A stretch of 64,000 nucleotides of DNA from Tardiphaga sp. vice304 (GTDB lineage Bacteria; Pseudomonadota; Alphaproteobacteria; Rhizobiales; Xanthobacteraceae): assembly GCF_007018905.1 (NCBI RefSeq), contig NZ_CP041402.1:744001-808000 (forward strand). Direction: 5' to 3'. Below the pieces are notes generated by a model. It saw nothing but the letters and a program-made list of their open reading frames with translations, did not search any database and was not told the origin of the DNA. This document shows positions 55,923-62,505 of the stretch, piece by piece. Made by a program: the position numbers and the translations under genes. Each line of letters starts with the position of its first letter. Position 1 is the first letter of the stretch.

Positions 55923-56357
55923 TTACAGCGTCACTTCGCCTTCCTCGGTGCCTTCCCAATAGGTGATGCGCCGGGCCTTCACCTTGATCAGCACGATACC
56001 GGGCGTATCGATACCCTTTTCGAACCACTTGTCGAGATCGGGCGTCCAGTGCTTCTCGAAGGCGGCCCTGTCACGGATCAGTTCGGCGTTGCCCTCGACG
56101 GCCACGTAGAGCCCGGAGCCGCTGAACCATCCGCCTGGTGCGGAAAATCCGAGCGCCACTTTGGGGTCGGCGGTGATATCGGACACCGCGCGTGCCTGCT
56201 CATAGGTGAAGTAATATGACGTGCCGTCATAGCTGACGTCGCCGTTATTGCTCATCGGCCGATTGGCAATTTCGCCATTCTCGGTGTGCGTCGACAGGAT
56301 CGCGATGTCGATCCCGGCCATCTTGTCGGCGACCTCGGCCAGCGTCTTCTTGTTCAT
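55923..56357 (-). CDS. pyridoxamine 5'-phosphate oxidase-fold protein (general stress type)
   Basis: This is a 144-residue split-barrel flavin-binding-fold protein resembling general stress protein 26. Seen: MAGIDIAILSTHTENGEIANRPMSN, SYYFTYEQARAVSDITADPKVALGFS and YVAVEGNAELIRDRAAFEKHWTPDLDKWFEKG. GGAGAAC precedes ATG 56357, which cuts off a spurious upstream extension. It lies downstream of the DUF1810 gene in the same direction. Confidence 0.9.
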   Translation of the reverse strand: MNKKTLAEVADKMAGIDIAILSTHTENGEIANRPMSNNGDVSYDGTSYYFTYEQARAVSDITADPKVALGFSAPGGWFSGSGLYVAVEGNAELIRDRAAFEKHWTPDLDKWFEKGIDTPGIVLIKVKARRITYWEGTEEGEVTL

Positions 56358-56415
56358 CTCGGTTCTCCATGTTGCGCCGATCAACGGCGCCGAAGCCCGC
56401 CGGTTCCCGTGAAGC

Positions 56416-56829
56416 TCAAAGTCGCTCGAGCGTCGCCGGGTCGCGCTGGCCGCCATAGAACCGCGCCAGCGCCTCGTCGAACATGCCGTCCGCGGCGACG
56501 GCATCGAACGGCGTCATGCACGATCGAAACTTGATATCGTCCGGCGAGCCGAAGATGGCGTTGGCGGTGCTGTCGGACACGGCGAGAACGGCCTGCGTGC
56601 ACTCGCGCAGCCGCGGGCCCAGAACATCATGCGCGACGTAGGCCTTTGCTTCGTCACGCGATGCGACCGCGTAATGCCGCGCCATCGCACTGTGGCCGAG
56701 GCCGGCGATCTGCGGAAACACGAACCACATCCAGTGAGTACGCTTGCGGCCGGCGCGCAATTCACCGAGCGCGGTGGCGTATATGTCCGTCTGGGCCTCG
56801 ACGAAACGCTGCAGGTCGCCGTCCGTCAT
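56416..56829 (-). CDS. DUF1810 family protein
   Basis: This is a 137-residue soluble protein of unknown function. The family core RKRTHWMWFVFPQIAGLGHSAMARHYAVASRDEAKAYVAHDVLGPRLRECTQAVL and SPDDIKFRSCMTPFDAVA is nearly complete. The length fits. The PNPOx-fold gene follows after 58 bases. There is a 256-base gap before the divergent ABC transporter gene. Confidence 0.9.
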   Translation of the reverse strand: MTDGDLQRFVEAQTDIYATALGELRAGRKRTHWMWFVFPQIAGLGHSAMARHYAVASRDEAKAYVAHDVLGPRLRECTQAVLAVSDSTANAIFGSPDDIKFRSCMTPFDAVAADGMFDEALARFYGGQRDPATLERL

Positions 56830-57085
56830 GTGAAATCCGTGAAATCCTCAAACAACGCTCGAACGTAGCATGAGATGAATCGTTCCTGCGCAGGGGCAGC
56901 AGGCGCCACCCAGGCTGCGCATGCGTGGACCTCCGCCCGCGCCCGGCTTCAGGTCGTCCCGACGGTCGCACGACGGCCGCCCCGGCTTCCGGTGCTGCGA
57001 CCGAAAGCCTGGAAATTGACTCTGGCGAAACTCCATGCTGCCATGCAATATCATGACAGTATTATTCGGCTGGGGAGACGGCATA

Positions 57086-58030
57086 ATGAAGTTGATTAGC
57101 ATTTCCGCGGCGGCGATGCTCGCCGCTCTGGTGGCCACGCCGGCGATGGCGCAGACCAAGGTGACCATCGCCATTTCCGGCTGGACCGGTTTCGCCCCGC
57201 TGACGCTGGCCAAAGAGGCGGGCATTTTCGCCAGGAATGGCCTCGACGTCACCATCAAGAAAGTCCCGCAGGCCAGCCGTCACCTCGCCATCGCGTCCGG
57301 CGACGTACAATGCGCAGCGACCACGGTCGAGACCTGGGTGGTCTGGAATGCCAACGGCGTCGCCACCACGCAGTTGTTCCAGCTCGACAAATCCTATGGC
57401 GCCGACGGCATGGCCGTACGCGGCACCACCGGCTCGATCAAGGACCTGAAAGGCAAGACCGTCGCCGCGTCCGCGCCCGGTACCGCGCCATATTTCACGC
57501 TGGCCTGGTTTCTGAAGAAGAACGGCATGTCGGTGAAGGACGTCAGCGTCGTCAACATGGAGCCCGGCCCGGCCGCGCAGGCCTTCATCGCCGGGCAGAA
57601 CGATGCCGCGATGACCTATGAGCCCTATCTCTCCGCGGTGCGCGAGAAGCCTGAAGCCGGCAAGATCATCGCCACCACGCTGGACTACCCGATGATCATG
57701 GACACGTTCGGCTGCACGCCGAAATTCATCGCGGATAATGAGGCCGCGGTGAAGGCGCTGACCAAGAGCTATTTCGAGGCCGTTGCCATGATCAAGTCGG
57801 ATCAGGCGAAGTCTTATGAAATCATGGGCGCCGACGTGAAGCAGTCCGGCGAAAAATTCGGCGCCTCTGCGCAGTACCTGCGCTGGCAGGACCAGGAGCA
57901 GAACAAGAAGTTCTTCGCCGGCGAATTCCAGGCTTTCTCCAAGGAAGCCGCCGAACTGCTGCTCGAGATAGGCGTGATCAAGGAAATCCCGGATCTCACC
58001 AAGATCGTCGACACGCGGTTCATCCAGTAA
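57086..58030 (+). CDS. NitT/TauT-type ABC transporter substrate-binding protein
   Basis: This is a 314-residue periplasmic protein. The signal peptide MKLISISAAAMLAALVATPAMAQ is followed by the SsuA/TauA-like fold: ISGWTGFAPLTLAKEAGIFARNGLDVTIKKVP, GDVQCAATTVETWVVWNANG, GKTVAASAPGTAPYFTLAWFLKKNG. Substrates of this class include sulfonates, taurine, nitrate, cyanate and pyrimidine precursors; none is indicated here. GGGGAG selects ATG 57086. A repeat lies between it and the permease gene. Confidence 0.93.
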   Translation: MKLISISAAAMLAALVATPAMAQTKVTIAISGWTGFAPLTLAKEAGIFARNGLDVTIKKVPQASRHLAIASGDVQCAATTVETWVVWNANGVATTQLFQLDKSYGADGMAVRGTTGSIKDLKGKTVAASAPGTAPYFTLAWFLKKNGMSVKDVSVVNMEPGPAAQAFIAGQNDAAMTYEPYLSAVREKPEAGKIIATTLDYPMIMDTFGCTPKFIADNEAAVKALTKSYFEAVAMIKSDQAKSYEIMGADVKQSGEKFGASAQYLRWQDQEQNKKFFAGEFQAFSKEAAELLLEIGVIKEIPDLTKIVDTRFIQ

Positions 58031-58047
58031 TCACCGGCCCCATCGCC

Positions 58048-58132
58048 GTCATTGCGAGCGAAGCGAAGCAATCCAGTTGCTTCGCTTCGCTGCTTTCTGG
58101 ATTGCTTCGTCGCAAGGGCTCCTCGCAATGAC
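58048..58132. repeat. GTCATTGCGAG..CTCGCAATGAC palindromic repeat
   Basis: Outer arms GTCATTGCGAG (58048-58058) and CTCGCAATGAC (58122-58132) enclose inner arms GAAGCAATCCAG / CTGGATTGCTTC. The element forms a long hairpin inside the ABC operon, between the binding-protein and permease genes, and may tune their relative expression. Confidence 0.85.
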
Positions 58133-58156
58133 GAATTCACCCGCAGATCATAAATC

Positions 58157-58930
58157 ATGAAACCTCTCGCCCCCGTTTCCTCCTCCGCGCGTGTCGTGCT
58201 CGGCATCTCGTTCTTCGTGCTGTTCGTCGCCGCGTGGTCCTATGCGACCTTCGGCGGCTTCGTCTCGAAAACCTTCCTCGCCAACCCTCTCACCATGCTG
58301 AATGACGGCTGGTGGCTGCTGACCAAACAGGGCTTCCTGTTCGACATCGGCATGACGATCTGGCGGGTGATCGGCGGCTTCGTGCTGGCGGCGCTGGTCG
58401 CGGTGCCGCTCGGCATCCTGATGGGCGCCTACAAGCCGGTCGAAGCCTTCCTCGAGCCCTTCGTATCGTTCGCCCGCTATTTGCCGGCCTCCGCCTTCAT
58501 TCCGCTGCTGATCCTGTGGGCCGGGATCGGCGAGTTGCAGAAACTGCTGGTGATCTTCATCGGCTCGGTATTCCAGATCATCCTGATGGTCGCGGTCACC
58601 GTAGGCAGCGTGCGCCGTGACCTCGTCGAGGCCTCGCTGACGCTCGGCGCGCGTGATGTCGGCGTGCTCCGGCGCGTGCTGATTCCCTCGGCGGCGCCGG
58701 GCATCGCCGAGATCCTGCGCCTCGTGCTCGGCTGGGCCTGGACCTATGTCATCGTCGCCGAACTGATCGGCTCGTCCTCGGGCATCGGTCACATGATCAT
58801 CGACAGCCAGGCGCTGCTGGCGACCGGGCAGATCATCTTCGGAATCATCGTGATCGGTATCATCGGGCTAATCTCGGACTACGCCTTCAAGGCCGCCAAC
58901 CGCGCGATGTTCCCGTGGAGCGTCCTGTGA
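58157..58930 (+). CDS. NitT/TauT-type ABC transporter permease
   Basis: This is a 257-residue inner-membrane protein with about six helices. The EAA loop reads EASLTLGARDVGVLRRVLIPSAAPGIAEILRL. The ASAFIPLLILWAGIGELQKLLVIF block is typical of SsuC/TauC permeases. It is downstream of the binding protein and overlaps the ATPase start (GTGA). Confidence 0.94.
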   Translation: MKPLAPVSSSARVVLGISFFVLFVAAWSYATFGGFVSKTFLANPLTMLNDGWWLLTKQGFLFDIGMTIWRVIGGFVLAALVAVPLGILMGAYKPVEAFLEPFVSFARYLPASAFIPLLILWAGIGELQKLLVIFIGSVFQIILMVAVTVGSVRRDLVEASLTLGARDVGVLRRVLIPSAAPGIAEILRLVLGWAWTYVIVAELIGSSSGIGHMIIDSQALLATGQIIFGIIVIGIIGLISDYAFKAANRAMFPWSVL

Positions 58931-59712
58931 GCAAGCTGGTCATCGAGAACGTCTCGCGCATCTTCCCCGCGGTGCGCGGCGGCACGCCCACGCGGGCGCT
59001 GGAGCCGGCCAACCTCGCGGTCGCCGACAACGACTTCGTCACCATTCTCGGCCCCTCCGGCTGCGGCAAGTCGACGTTGCTGCGCATGGTGGCCGGGCTG
59101 GACACGCCGACCACCGGCCACATCCTGCTCGACGGCAAGGCCATTACCGGCCCCGGCGCCGACCGCGGCATGGTGTTCCAGTCCTACACGCTGTTCCCCT
59201 GGCTGACGGTGTCGGAGAACATCTCGTTCGGGCTGCGCGAGCGCGGCGTCTCGTTGCGCGAACGCAATGCGATCGCCGCCGAATGGCTCGACAAGGTCGG
59301 CCTCACCAGCTTTGCGCATCATTTTCCGAAACAGCTCTCCGGCGGCATGCAGCAGCGTACCGCGATCGCCCGCGCACTCGCCAACAGCCCGAAAATCCTG
59401 CTGCTCGACGAGCCGTTCGGCGCGCTCGACAACCAGACCCGCGCCTTGATGCAGGAACTGTTGCTCGGCATCTGGGAGCGCGAGCGCAAGACCGTGATTT
59501 TCGTCACCCACGATATCGAGGAGGCGGTGTTTCTCGCCTCCCGCGTGGTGGTGATGTCGGCGCGACCCGGCCGCATCAAGGCCGATGTCGCCGTCGATCT
59601 GCCGCATCCGCGGCACTACACGATCAAGACCAGCCCGGAATTCTCGGCATTGAAGGCAAGGTTGACGGAAGAGATCCGCGTCGAGGCCGTGCTGGCCGCA
59701 GAAGCGCATTAG
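58927..59712 (+). CDS. NitT/TauT-type ABC transporter ATP-binding protein
   Basis: This is a 261-residue ATPase. Walker A is GPSGCGKST, the Q-loop follows in MVFQSYTLFPWLTV, the signature is LSGGMQQR, Walker B is LLLDEPFGAL, and the H-loop is FVTHDIEEA. The start is taken as GTG 58927 (MSKLVIENVSR), overlapping the permease stop; GTG 58915 is also possible. Confidence 0.94.
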   Translation: MSKLVIENVSRIFPAVRGGTPTRALEPANLAVADNDFVTILGPSGCGKSTLLRMVAGLDTPTTGHILLDGKAITGPGADRGMVFQSYTLFPWLTVSENISFGLRERGVSLRERNAIAAEWLDKVGLTSFAHHFPKQLSGGMQQRTAIARALANSPKILLLDEPFGALDNQTRALMQELLLGIWERERKTVIFVTHDIEEAVFLASRVVVMSARPGRIKADVAVDLPHPRHYTIKTSPEFSALKARLTEEIRVEAVLAAEAH

Positions 59713-59795: not shown

Positions 59796-61397
59796 CTACT
59801 TCTTGTCCAGCATCTCCCGGATCTTTGCCGCCAGCGTCGCCTGCGGAATCGGTTTTTGCAGCAGCGACACGCCGGCATCCAGTCGCCCGTTGTGCACGAT
59901 GGCGTTGCGGGAATAGCCGGTCATGAACAGCACCCTCAACCCCGGCTGGCGCTTTTGCATCTCTCCGGCGAACTGGCGGCCGTTCATGCCGGGCATCACG
60001 ACGTCCGTGAGAAGCAAATCGATCGGCGACGGGTCGCGTTCGAAGTCGGACAGCGCCTGATCGGCATTCGGTGCGAAGCGGATGCGGTAGTCCAGCCCCT
60101 CCAGCGTCTCGACCAGGTAGGCGCGCACGTCCGGATCGTCTTCCACCACCATGATGGTCTCATGGCCGCTTCCGCCGATCACCACGCTGTCGGTCTCGAT
60201 CGCCGCTTCCGCCGTTTTCCGGCTGCGCGGGAGATAGATCTTGATGGTCGTACCGAGGCCTGCCTCGCTGTAGATCTTGACGTGCCCGCCGGACTGCTTG
60301 ACGAAGCCGTAGACTTGGCTGAGGCCGAGACCGGTGCCGAGGCCAGGTTCCTTGGTCGTGAAGAACGGATCGAAGGCGCGCTCCTGCACCTCCTTCGGCA
60401 TGCCGGGGCCGGTATCGCTCACGGCAATCTGGACATATTGACCGACCGGCAGATCGGCATGCTGCTGCGCGTAGGCTTCGTCGATGAAGGCGTTGCTGGT
60501 CTCGATCGTCAGGCTGCCGCGGTCCGCCATGGCGTCGCGCGCGTTGACGACGAGGTTGAGGATGCCGGCTTCCATCTGACCGCGATCGACCTCGACCTGC
60601 CACAGCCCGGCGCCGCCGACGATTTCCAGCTCGATGTTTTCGCTGAGCGTGCGCTGGAAGAAGTCCGACATGCCCTGCAGCAACTGGTTGACATTGATCG
60701 GCTTCGGATCGAGCGGCTGGCGTCGTGCGAAGGCCAGCAGGCGCTGCGTCAGGACGATCGCGCGCTGCGCGCCGCCCGCGGCGCTGGCGATCACGCGCCT
60801 GAGGCGCGCTTGCGAGCCATCGGTCCAGTTGTTGACGGTGCGTTCGGCGATTTCGAGATTGCCGATGATGATGGTCAGAAGGTTGTTGAAATCATGCGCG
60901 ACGCCGCCGGTGAGGTGGCCGATCGCTTCCATCTTCTGCGATTGACGCAGCATGTCCTCGGCCTCGCGGCGATAGCGGCCTTCCTCGACCAGCGCCAGTT
61001 GGGCTTCGTGCAATTGCGCCGGCGACGGAATCGCCAGCAGCCGCGGCAGCAGCGGCCAAAGGATTGCTGCCGTGATCACGGATGCGACCGCGGTGATCGC
61101 CTTGACGATGCCCTGAATTCCGTAGATCGGCACCCACAGCGTGATGATCGAAAGCACATGCGTGAGGCCGCAGGCCATGATGAAGATCGCAAAAGCCCAG
61201 AAGATCCAGCCGAACTCCACGTCGCGCCGCCGCATCACGAAGATCGTCAACACCACGGGGATCGAGAAGTAGGCCAGCGCGGTCAAGACATCGGAGCCGA
61301 CATGCAGCCAGATCAGGCCGGGTTCCCACAACAGGCAGATGCCGTGCGGTGCAAAAAGGGAGGTGTCGAGAAGATTTTGGAAGAAGGCCCACATCAT
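59796..61397 (-). CDS. ethylene-receptor-like (ETR1-type) hybrid sensor histidine kinase
   Basis: This is a 533-residue membrane kinase. Residues ~30-120 form three helices. Against plant ETR1, Asp36, Tyr43, Ile46, Pro47, Cys76 and His80 fall at exactly +11 from ETR1 D25, Y32, I35, P36, C65 and H69, the copper/ethylene site ([18 protein letters not shown]). HisKA follows with His168 ([11 protein letters not shown]), then a HATPase domain ([24 protein letters not shown]) and a receiver with Asp465 ([13 protein letters not shown]). ATG 61397 is used; an in-frame TTG lies 30 bases upstream. A lone receiver gene precedes it in the same direction. Ligand binding is inferred. Confidence 0.88.
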
Positions 61398-61468
61398 CGT
61401 GCTCAATTTTGGAACGGTGTCGAGCAAGCAGCGTGGACGGGAGCCGATGGAGCGTCAACCCGCGTCAG

Positions 61469-61912
61469 TCAGGCGACGGCCTTGGCCAGGTCACGAAGTG
61501 TGGAAATGATCTGATGGGAGAGATAGGGCTTGGCGATAAACACCCCGCCCGCCGGCAGATCGCCGTCGCGCATCTGGAAATGGCCGGACGTTGCCACGAT
61601 CCGGATTGGCGGCCATCGGTTGGCCACGGCGTGCGCCAGCTTCAGTCCGTTCATCGAACCCGGCATGTCGATATCGGTAAAGATGACGGCGATATCCAGA
61701 CGGGTCTCCAGCAATTTGATCGCTTCGTCGGCGTTCGGTGCTTCCAGAACTTTGAAGCCGGCCTCTTCGATCATTTCGGCAGCGTGCATCCGCAACAGCG
61801 TATCGTCTTCGACGACCAGGACCACTGGCCGCGATCTCGTGTTTCCGACGATGTCATTGTCGAGTGATTGCACTCCGCCTTCAGGTTTGGCGTGTGGCTT
61901 CGCATAAGTCAT
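61469..61912 (-). CDS. single-domain response regulator
   Basis: This is a 147-residue protein with one receiver domain after a ~28-residue leader. The acidic pocket is E35-D36-D37, the phospho-acceptor Asp80 (VIFTDIDMPGSMNG), Ser104 in VATSGH, and Lys in IAKPYLS. It has no output domain. It lies 71 bases upstream of the ETR1-like kinase in the same direction and is its likely partner or phosphate sink. Confidence 0.9.
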   Translation of the reverse strand: MTYAKPHAKPEGGVQSLDNDIVGNTRSRPVVLVVEDDTLLRMHAAEMIEEAGFKVLEAPNADEAIKLLETRLDIAVIFTDIDMPGSMNGLKLAHAVANRWPPIRIVATSGHFQMRDGDLPAGGVFIAKPYLSHQIISTLRDLAKAVA

Positions 61913-62028: not shown

Positions 62029-62505
62029 TTAATCGACCGGGTGGTGCCGTGGTATCGTTGTTCGTGCCGGATGCCCGGCATCGGTACGGTCGCGTACAGT
62101 CTTGAACACGCCATGCGCGGTGGCGACGACACGGTCGCCGACGCAAACTTCGGTGCTCATGAAGATCAGGCTGCGGGTCGCGCGCAGCGCCTTCGGCCGC
62201 GAGATCATCAACTCCCCGATCCGCGCGGCATCGACGAAAAACGTGTCCATCTGTACGGTAGCCAGCGCATCGGCGCCGGACACGGCGCGTGCCGTCATCC
62301 CGCAACTACGATCCGCCAACGTCATCAGCACACCGCCCTGTACCACGCCGCGGCGGTTGCGGTGCTTGTCCCGACCGACGATCGCAAACTCATGGTCGGT
62401 GCCGACCATGCGGTGCCATACCGGCCCGACCAGATGAATGAAGCCGTCATCGTCCATGATGGACCAGCCGGCTTCCAGCAGCTCGGCATTTATGGCTTCG
62501 GTCAT
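62029..62505 (-). CDS. PaaI-type hotdog-fold thioesterase
   Basis: This is a 158-residue thioesterase-superfamily protein. The hotdog motif NRRGVVQGGVLMTLADRSCGMTARAV has the usual position of the acidic catalytic residue, and the strand ALATVQMDTFFVDAARIGE follows. AAGGAC selects ATG 62505. Acyl-CoA specificity unknown. It is divergent from the Nudix gene. Confidence 0.88.
   Translation of the reverse strand: MTEAINAELLEAGWSIMDDDGFIHLVGPVWHRMVGTDHEFAIVGRDKHRNRRGVVQGGVLMTLADRSCGMTARAVSGADALATVQMDTFFVDAARIGELMISRPKALRATRSLIFMSTEVCVGDRVVATAHGVFKTVRDRTDAGHPARTTIPRHHPVD

Follow-up and report, generated by a model that had tools for sequence, protein, structure and literature searches.

A putative ETR1-type ethylene receptor kinase at a conserved thioesterase-receiver locus of Tardiphaga

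The window analysed here, a stretch of 64,000 nucleotides from the genome of Tardiphaga sp. vice304, contains three consecutive genes on the minus strand that are the subject of this report. The first of them (62029..62505, (-)) codes for a protein of the 4HBT thioesterase superfamily, and it is followed by a lone receiver, that is, a single-domain response regulator of 147 aa (61469..61912, (-)). The stop codon of the latter lies 74 bases from the ATG at 61394, where the coding sequence of an ETR1-type hybrid histidine kinase starts (59796..61394, (-); 532 aa from this ATG, which is backed by homology). An earlier note, made from the letters of this DNA, had pointed to a lone receiver gene upstream of the kinase, and this gene is real (Response_reg, 57.9 bits); it matches three other places in the genome of the window. 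Neither promoters nor terminators above chance were found at the locus. Past the end of the kinase gene, and convergent with it, there are genes of an ABC transporter similar to SsuABC/TauABC (57035-59712, (+)); the ATPase of this transporter has a match with an E of 1e-90 or lower in 16 of the 18 genomes of Tardiphaga. Further along (55923-56829, (-)), overlapping frames code for a DUF1810 protein and for a pyridoxamine-oxidase-like protein, the true start of which is probably internal to the listed frame.

At its full length, the reading frame of the kinase extends from 59796 to 61427 (-), and it has two in-frame starts upstream of the ATG at 61394, namely an ATG at 61397 and a TTG at 61427. 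Because a Met-Trp pair at 61394 is common to 14 of 15 orthologues, and the 19 columns that precede it vary much (mean identity of 0.32 among 11 Tardiphaga), the ATG at 61394 is the likely start, and the residues would then be displaced by +10 with respect to those of ETR1.

The protein begins with a domain of the ethylene-binding type, ETR1_N (Pfam PF25487; residues 27-122; 61029..61316, (-)), which was matched with 129.1 bits and an E of 7.6e-38, the cut-off being 27 bits. This domain is followed by HisKA (residues 160-226; 60717..60917, (-); 29.5 bits), with the phospho-acceptor His167, by HATPase_c (residues 277-391; 60222..60566, (-); 67.3 bits) and by a fused receiver, Response_reg (residues 414-526; 59817..60155, (-); 69.4 bits), with the acceptor Asp464, each of them scoring above its own Pfam cut-off. 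Hydropathy analysis revealed three membrane stretches, centred at residues 43-46, 68-81 and 102-113. The architecture that had been described for this gene, a three-helix N-terminus joined to HisKA, HATPase and a receiver, was consequently recovered in full. Between the edge of ETR1_N (residue 122) and that of HisKA (residue 160) there are 37 residues, where no GAF or PAS family was found at E 0.001 (Pfam). All of the 10 aligned orthologues have both His167 and Asp464. Searching by sequence, no solved structure was found to match the sensor.

As the reference for the binding site, we used the N-terminus of Arabidopsis ETR1, and we take I62 to be a seventh required residue, absent from the six (D25, Y32, I35, P36, C65 and H69) that had been listed before. 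All seven are matched in the kinase with one constant offset, and K91 of ETR1 is also matched, by K98. Numbered from the ATG at 61394, the residues of the site are D35, Y42, I45, P46, I72, C75, H79 and K98. The claim of the earlier note that six ETR1 residues are present at a constant offset is therefore correct, but its figure of +11 is obtained only from the ATG at 61397, as the likely start gives +10. According to a study on Azospirillum brasilense (PMC11819568), the seven residues have been reported as needed for ethylene binding by AtETR1.

The conservation of the cysteine and the histidine among close orthologues had been named as a test of the assignment, and it withstood it, as none of the seven residues varies among the 10 aligned orthologues, nor among the 40 compared domains of the clade of the kinase (see below). 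In a wider comparison, the complete set was observed in 63 of 95 unique domains and in 19 of 28 class-level domains, figures that describe chosen sets, not random ones; the loci behind the 95 domains comprised named relatives, the best 30 of the family matches, 60 hand-picked regions (8 of them re-fetches and many deliberately low-scoring) and 8 plasmid loci. The 95 domains have at least 80 residues and 20 bits; L110, read only through its first, weak domain line, is in no residue count, and the class-level set leaves out L191, which belongs to a family genome. Six split or frame-broken relatives with short frames (L077, L096, L100, L103, L106 and L115) were compared only as separate pieces. 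Pairwise comparison of the 11 Tardiphaga kinases gave median dN/dS values of 0.098 for the sensor, 0.109 for the kinase part and 0.133 for the receiver (55 non-independent pairs, with synonymous sites far diverged); sensor and kinase part are under purifying selection of similar strength.

The ETR1_N profile finds a single gene in the 5.79 Mb genome of the window. Chance resemblance to ETR1_N was rejected, given the E of the match and the lack of any match to the profile in 14 control genomes. Of the 18 Tardiphaga genomes, 11 have the domain and, as the other 7 have no match, the kinase gene is dispensable. At larger scales, it was detected in 130 of 391 family genomes (128 over the cut-off) and in 28 of 385 genomes of a class sample, including that of the window and one family-mate. 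The N-terminus also matched 18 of 72,556 plasmid records, from Azospirillum (7), Novosphingobium (2), Rhodovastum (2) and Acaryochloris (2), with single matches in Kovacikia, Pseudanabaena, Eleftheria, Blastomonas and Rhizobium. One response-regulator gene adjoins the ETR1_N kinase of the Novosphingobium plasmid p2 (L175), and two adjoin that of the Blastomonas plasmid (L180). Plasmid p2, for which conjugation is predicted, also has a cas9 gene in the vicinity of the kinase. The earlier guess of a plant-associated or soil alphaproteobacterium as the source of the DNA fits Tardiphaga; the best relatives that bear a name are Tardiphaga MAGs and T. robiniae.

Eight short ETR1_N proteins were also observed in Nitrobacteraceae (L135-L140, L143 and L150; open frames of 218-303 aa). 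They have the seven residues of the ethylene site, do not keep K91, and continue with a phospho-acceptor stretch of the HisKA_2 type; Pfam analysis of 4 of the 8 gave HisKA_2 over the cut-off and no ATPase domain. Judging from their sequences, these proteins look like receptors with an ethylene site that would be unable to self-phosphorylate.

In a tree of the domain (116 rows and few columns, with SH-aLRT as the only support, after dropping L077, L115, L132, L133, L146, L147, L208 and L210), the kinase falls within a clade of 40 domains (support 90), all 40 of which have the seven residues. Its sister (joint support 92) is a clade of 17 paralogous domains (support 100) from Nitrobacteraceae (L116-L125, L127, L128, L131 and L151-L153, with two domains in L119), in which the ETR1_N-kinase-receiver order is the same, but only 0 to 3 of the seven residues are present. 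The changes are P36A in 17/17, Y32F in 16/17, H69R in 15/17 and I35T in 10/17, with I62 altered in 17/17 (mostly to V or A), and D25, C65 and K91 are each retained in 14/17. When the 66 positions that are almost invariant in the 40-domain clade were compared, the residue was missing from most of the 17 domains at 5 of the 7 site positions versus 18 of the 59 other positions (Fisher p 0.045). As this enrichment is weak, part of the loss is a consequence of general divergence; perhaps the sister clade has another ligand or metal geometry. A frame in Bradyrhizobium erythrophlei GAS478 (L077, 7904-9415) is a relative of this clade by its residues, and it breaks after helix 2.

Thioesterase, lone receiver and kinase are consecutive on one strand in all of the 11 kinase-bearing Tardiphaga. 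The thioesterase is present in the 18 genomes of the genus, and the receiver adjoins it in 16 of them, including five that have no kinase (G002, G006, G007, G008 and G009). In G002, G006 and G009, the gene order is ABC-transporter ATPase, receiver and thioesterase, and the aligned ends of the ATPase and the receiver are some 73-173 bases apart, at the place where the kinase would be expected. G007 and G008 have the thioesterase-receiver pair without a kinase beside it. In G013, both receiver and kinase are absent, and the thioesterase comes directly after the ATPase. In G010, a contig ends about 270 bases from the thioesterase, and the presence of the other two genes cannot be judged there. 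The assemblies of G006, G009, G010 and G013 are 81-87% complete; an assembly artefact was rejected as the cause of the absence for G002, G006, G009 and G013, where the sequence covers the locus and has no kinase in it. When mapped on the thioesterase gene tree, kinase presence requires 5 changes, and well-supported branches force at least 3 of these; its clustering does not exceed that of shuffled labels. The number of changes cannot separate gain from loss; our reading is that there was one early gain followed by several losses, as the domain tree, in its Tardiphaga portion, broadly agrees with the thioesterase tree.

Purifying selection acts on the receiver whether the kinase is absent (median dN/dS of 0.134 in 10 pairs; 0.014 for G006-G009) or present (median of 0.177 in 55 pairs), and to a similar degree. 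As it is kept under selection without the kinase, it probably has kinase-independent work. If "dedicated" is understood as confined to genomes with the kinase, which is our own definition and not that of PMC11819568, the presence of the receiver in 5 of the 7 kinase-free Tardiphaga contradicts it. Position and selection together indicate that the receiver is not simply the dedicated partner of the kinase, and any pairing of both genes implied by the earlier note is weakened. What is conserved at this locus is the thioesterase-receiver pair, to which the kinase seems to be an input that can be removed.

Every key position of the ETR1 site is matched and, consequently, the kinase probably senses ethylene. 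We are thus fairly confident that this bacterial protein is an ethylene receptor like ETR1, SynEtr1 and AzoEtr1, with a site that would bind copper and ethylene by homology, although matching residues alone do not prove copper loading. In the model proposed here, the dimer, the copper, ethylene binding and the sign of the output are taken from homologues. The three N-terminal membrane helices would form a dimeric site, in which Cu(I) would be held through C75 and H79. Once ethylene is bound to the copper, a change could run from helix 3 (K98) via the short linker into the dimerisation domain of HisKA; in its simplest form, this route would lead from the copper site down helix 3 straight to the dimerisation helices, and neither a GAF nor a PAS domain was detected on the way. 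To judge from characterised receptors, the kinase probably autophosphorylates less at H167 when ethylene is bound, an effect on kinase activity that is drawn from ETR1 and, indirectly, from SynEtr1, as discussed in PMC11819568. The phosphate would go to the fused receiver (D464) and thence, or directly, to free receivers, among which the upstream lone receiver is one candidate.

It could also be argued that the copper site has been kept, but that something other than ethylene is the main ligand or signal, be it a different gas or small alkene, the redox state of the membrane or how much Cu(I) is available. No linked gene for ethylene metabolism was found, and the changes Y32F, P36A and H69R show, in the sister clade, that this scaffold is open to remodelling. 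Nevertheless, the residues retained are all seven of the ethylene site of ETR1, beyond the metal ligands, and AzoEtr1, which has the seven as well, is an ethylene binder, so we regard a different ligand as quite unlikely. It is still harder to see in the kinase a decaying relic whose gene is being lost because ethylene sensing is no longer important. The patchy distribution in the genus (11/18) and its probable repeated loss would be expected from such a relic, but purifying selection acts on the sensor, kinase and receiver parts alike, and no catalytic residue has been lost, making this explanation very improbable. A link to ethylene metabolism via ACC deaminase was also considered and rejected in Tardiphaga, where the enzyme (at the family cut-off) has about equal frequency in genomes with the kinase (6/11) and without it (4/7); none was found over that cut-off in the genome of the window.

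The proposal that kinase and upstream receiver form a dedicated two-component pair, like that suggested for AzoEtr1 and its receiver, deserves more credit, although we lean against it. The adjacency of the three genes in every kinase-bearing Tardiphaga speaks for such a pair, and receiver genes also adjoin some other ETR1_N kinases. However, the receiver is maintained by selection in kinase-free strains, a search up to 1.5 kb from four orthologues (L009 and L010, both from Bradyrhizobium, L104 and L107) gave no receiver gene, and the kinase carries a fused receiver of its own. A broader reading, which we put forward tentatively and hold to be rather doubtful as a whole, is that an older thioesterase-receiver pathway of Tardiphaga has the ethylene receptor as an input that strains can do without, and that the same domain was remodelled in two further ways in the family, namely in the P36A/H69R clade and in the short ETR1_N-HisKA_2 proteins without an ATPase domain. 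If this were true, ambient ethylene would, in strains with the kinase, determine how strongly a receiver with another use in nearly all strains is phosphorylated, and the loss of the kinase would unplug ethylene while leaving the pathway intact.

The Bradyrhizobium-Tardiphaga family includes root-nodule bacteria and, if the kinase binds ethylene, it would join the few bacteria shown to read this plant hormone directly. A literature search found neither binding nor physiology data for such receptors in the family, nor, by listings that covered few subscription journals, any paper on them in Tardiphaga or Bradyrhizobium. Ethylene binding would also make the very short connection between sensor and kinase useful for studying how a gas signal crosses the membrane. 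Strains of the same genus with and without the kinase, together with the sister paralogues that lost the site, are natural controls.

Among known systems, the hybrid kinases of the CckA/PRK13557 type resemble only the kinase-receiver half of the protein, the sensor half being uncovered. The NCBIfam matches to PRK13557 (406 bits) and CckA (340 bits) are both below their curated cut-offs; for CckA, scores of 340 and 283 bits stand against a cut-off of 1000. The best solved-structure matches of the kinase half are PDB 5idj, a histidine kinase, and 5idm, from CckA, a protein that passes phosphate onward through a phosphotransferase. The degenerate Nitrobacteraceae paralogues (17 domains) share ETR1_N, a HisKA-type kinase and a receiver in the same order, but their ethylene site is altered. 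Arabidopsis ETR1, a member of subfamily 1 in which a kinase-type protein is followed by a receiver, has in common with the Tardiphaga kinase the seven binding residues and K91. By contrast, subfamily 1 is described in PMC5285503 as having a GAF domain, and ETR1 is stated to signal mainly via a Ser/Thr kinase (PMC11819568). PMC5285503 also describes ethylene-receptor homologues in early fungi. SynEtr1 of Synechocystis, compared here only through its description in PMC11819568, likewise has an ethylene-binding domain on a signalling histidine kinase, but it also senses light, and its response regulator is known (slr1213).

The closest analogue is AzoEtr1 of A. brasilense, the first 130 residues of which contain the seven residues and bind ethylene, and in this bacterium ethylene reduces biofilm formation and root colonisation (PMC11819568). 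The statement of the earlier note that few bacterial ethylene sensors are characterised holds, yet AzoEtr1 is already a proven ethylene binder according to that source, whose authors state that many bacteria carry predicted ethylene-binding domains, as is likewise stated in PMC7700396 and PMC6682694. The likeness extends to an ethylene-site N-terminus, an adjacent lone receiver gene and a plant-associated alphaproteobacterial host, and even to the numbers D35, C75, H79 and K98, which are identical when the Tardiphaga kinase is counted from the ATG at 61394. The H69-K91 spacing is therefore the same in both proteins, and 3 residues shorter than in AtETR1. In tblastn, the Tardiphaga sensor has about 53% identity over 138 aa with plasmid loci of A. 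brasilense. The differences are that a binding domain, a PAS domain and a kinase are reported for AzoEtr1 in PMC11819568, whereas the Tardiphaga kinase has no PAS and has a fused receiver, and that the receiver gene of AzoEtr1 is downstream and overlapping, whereas that of Tardiphaga is upstream and 74 bases away. The Tardiphaga kinase adds to a kind of receptor that is already known in other bacteria.
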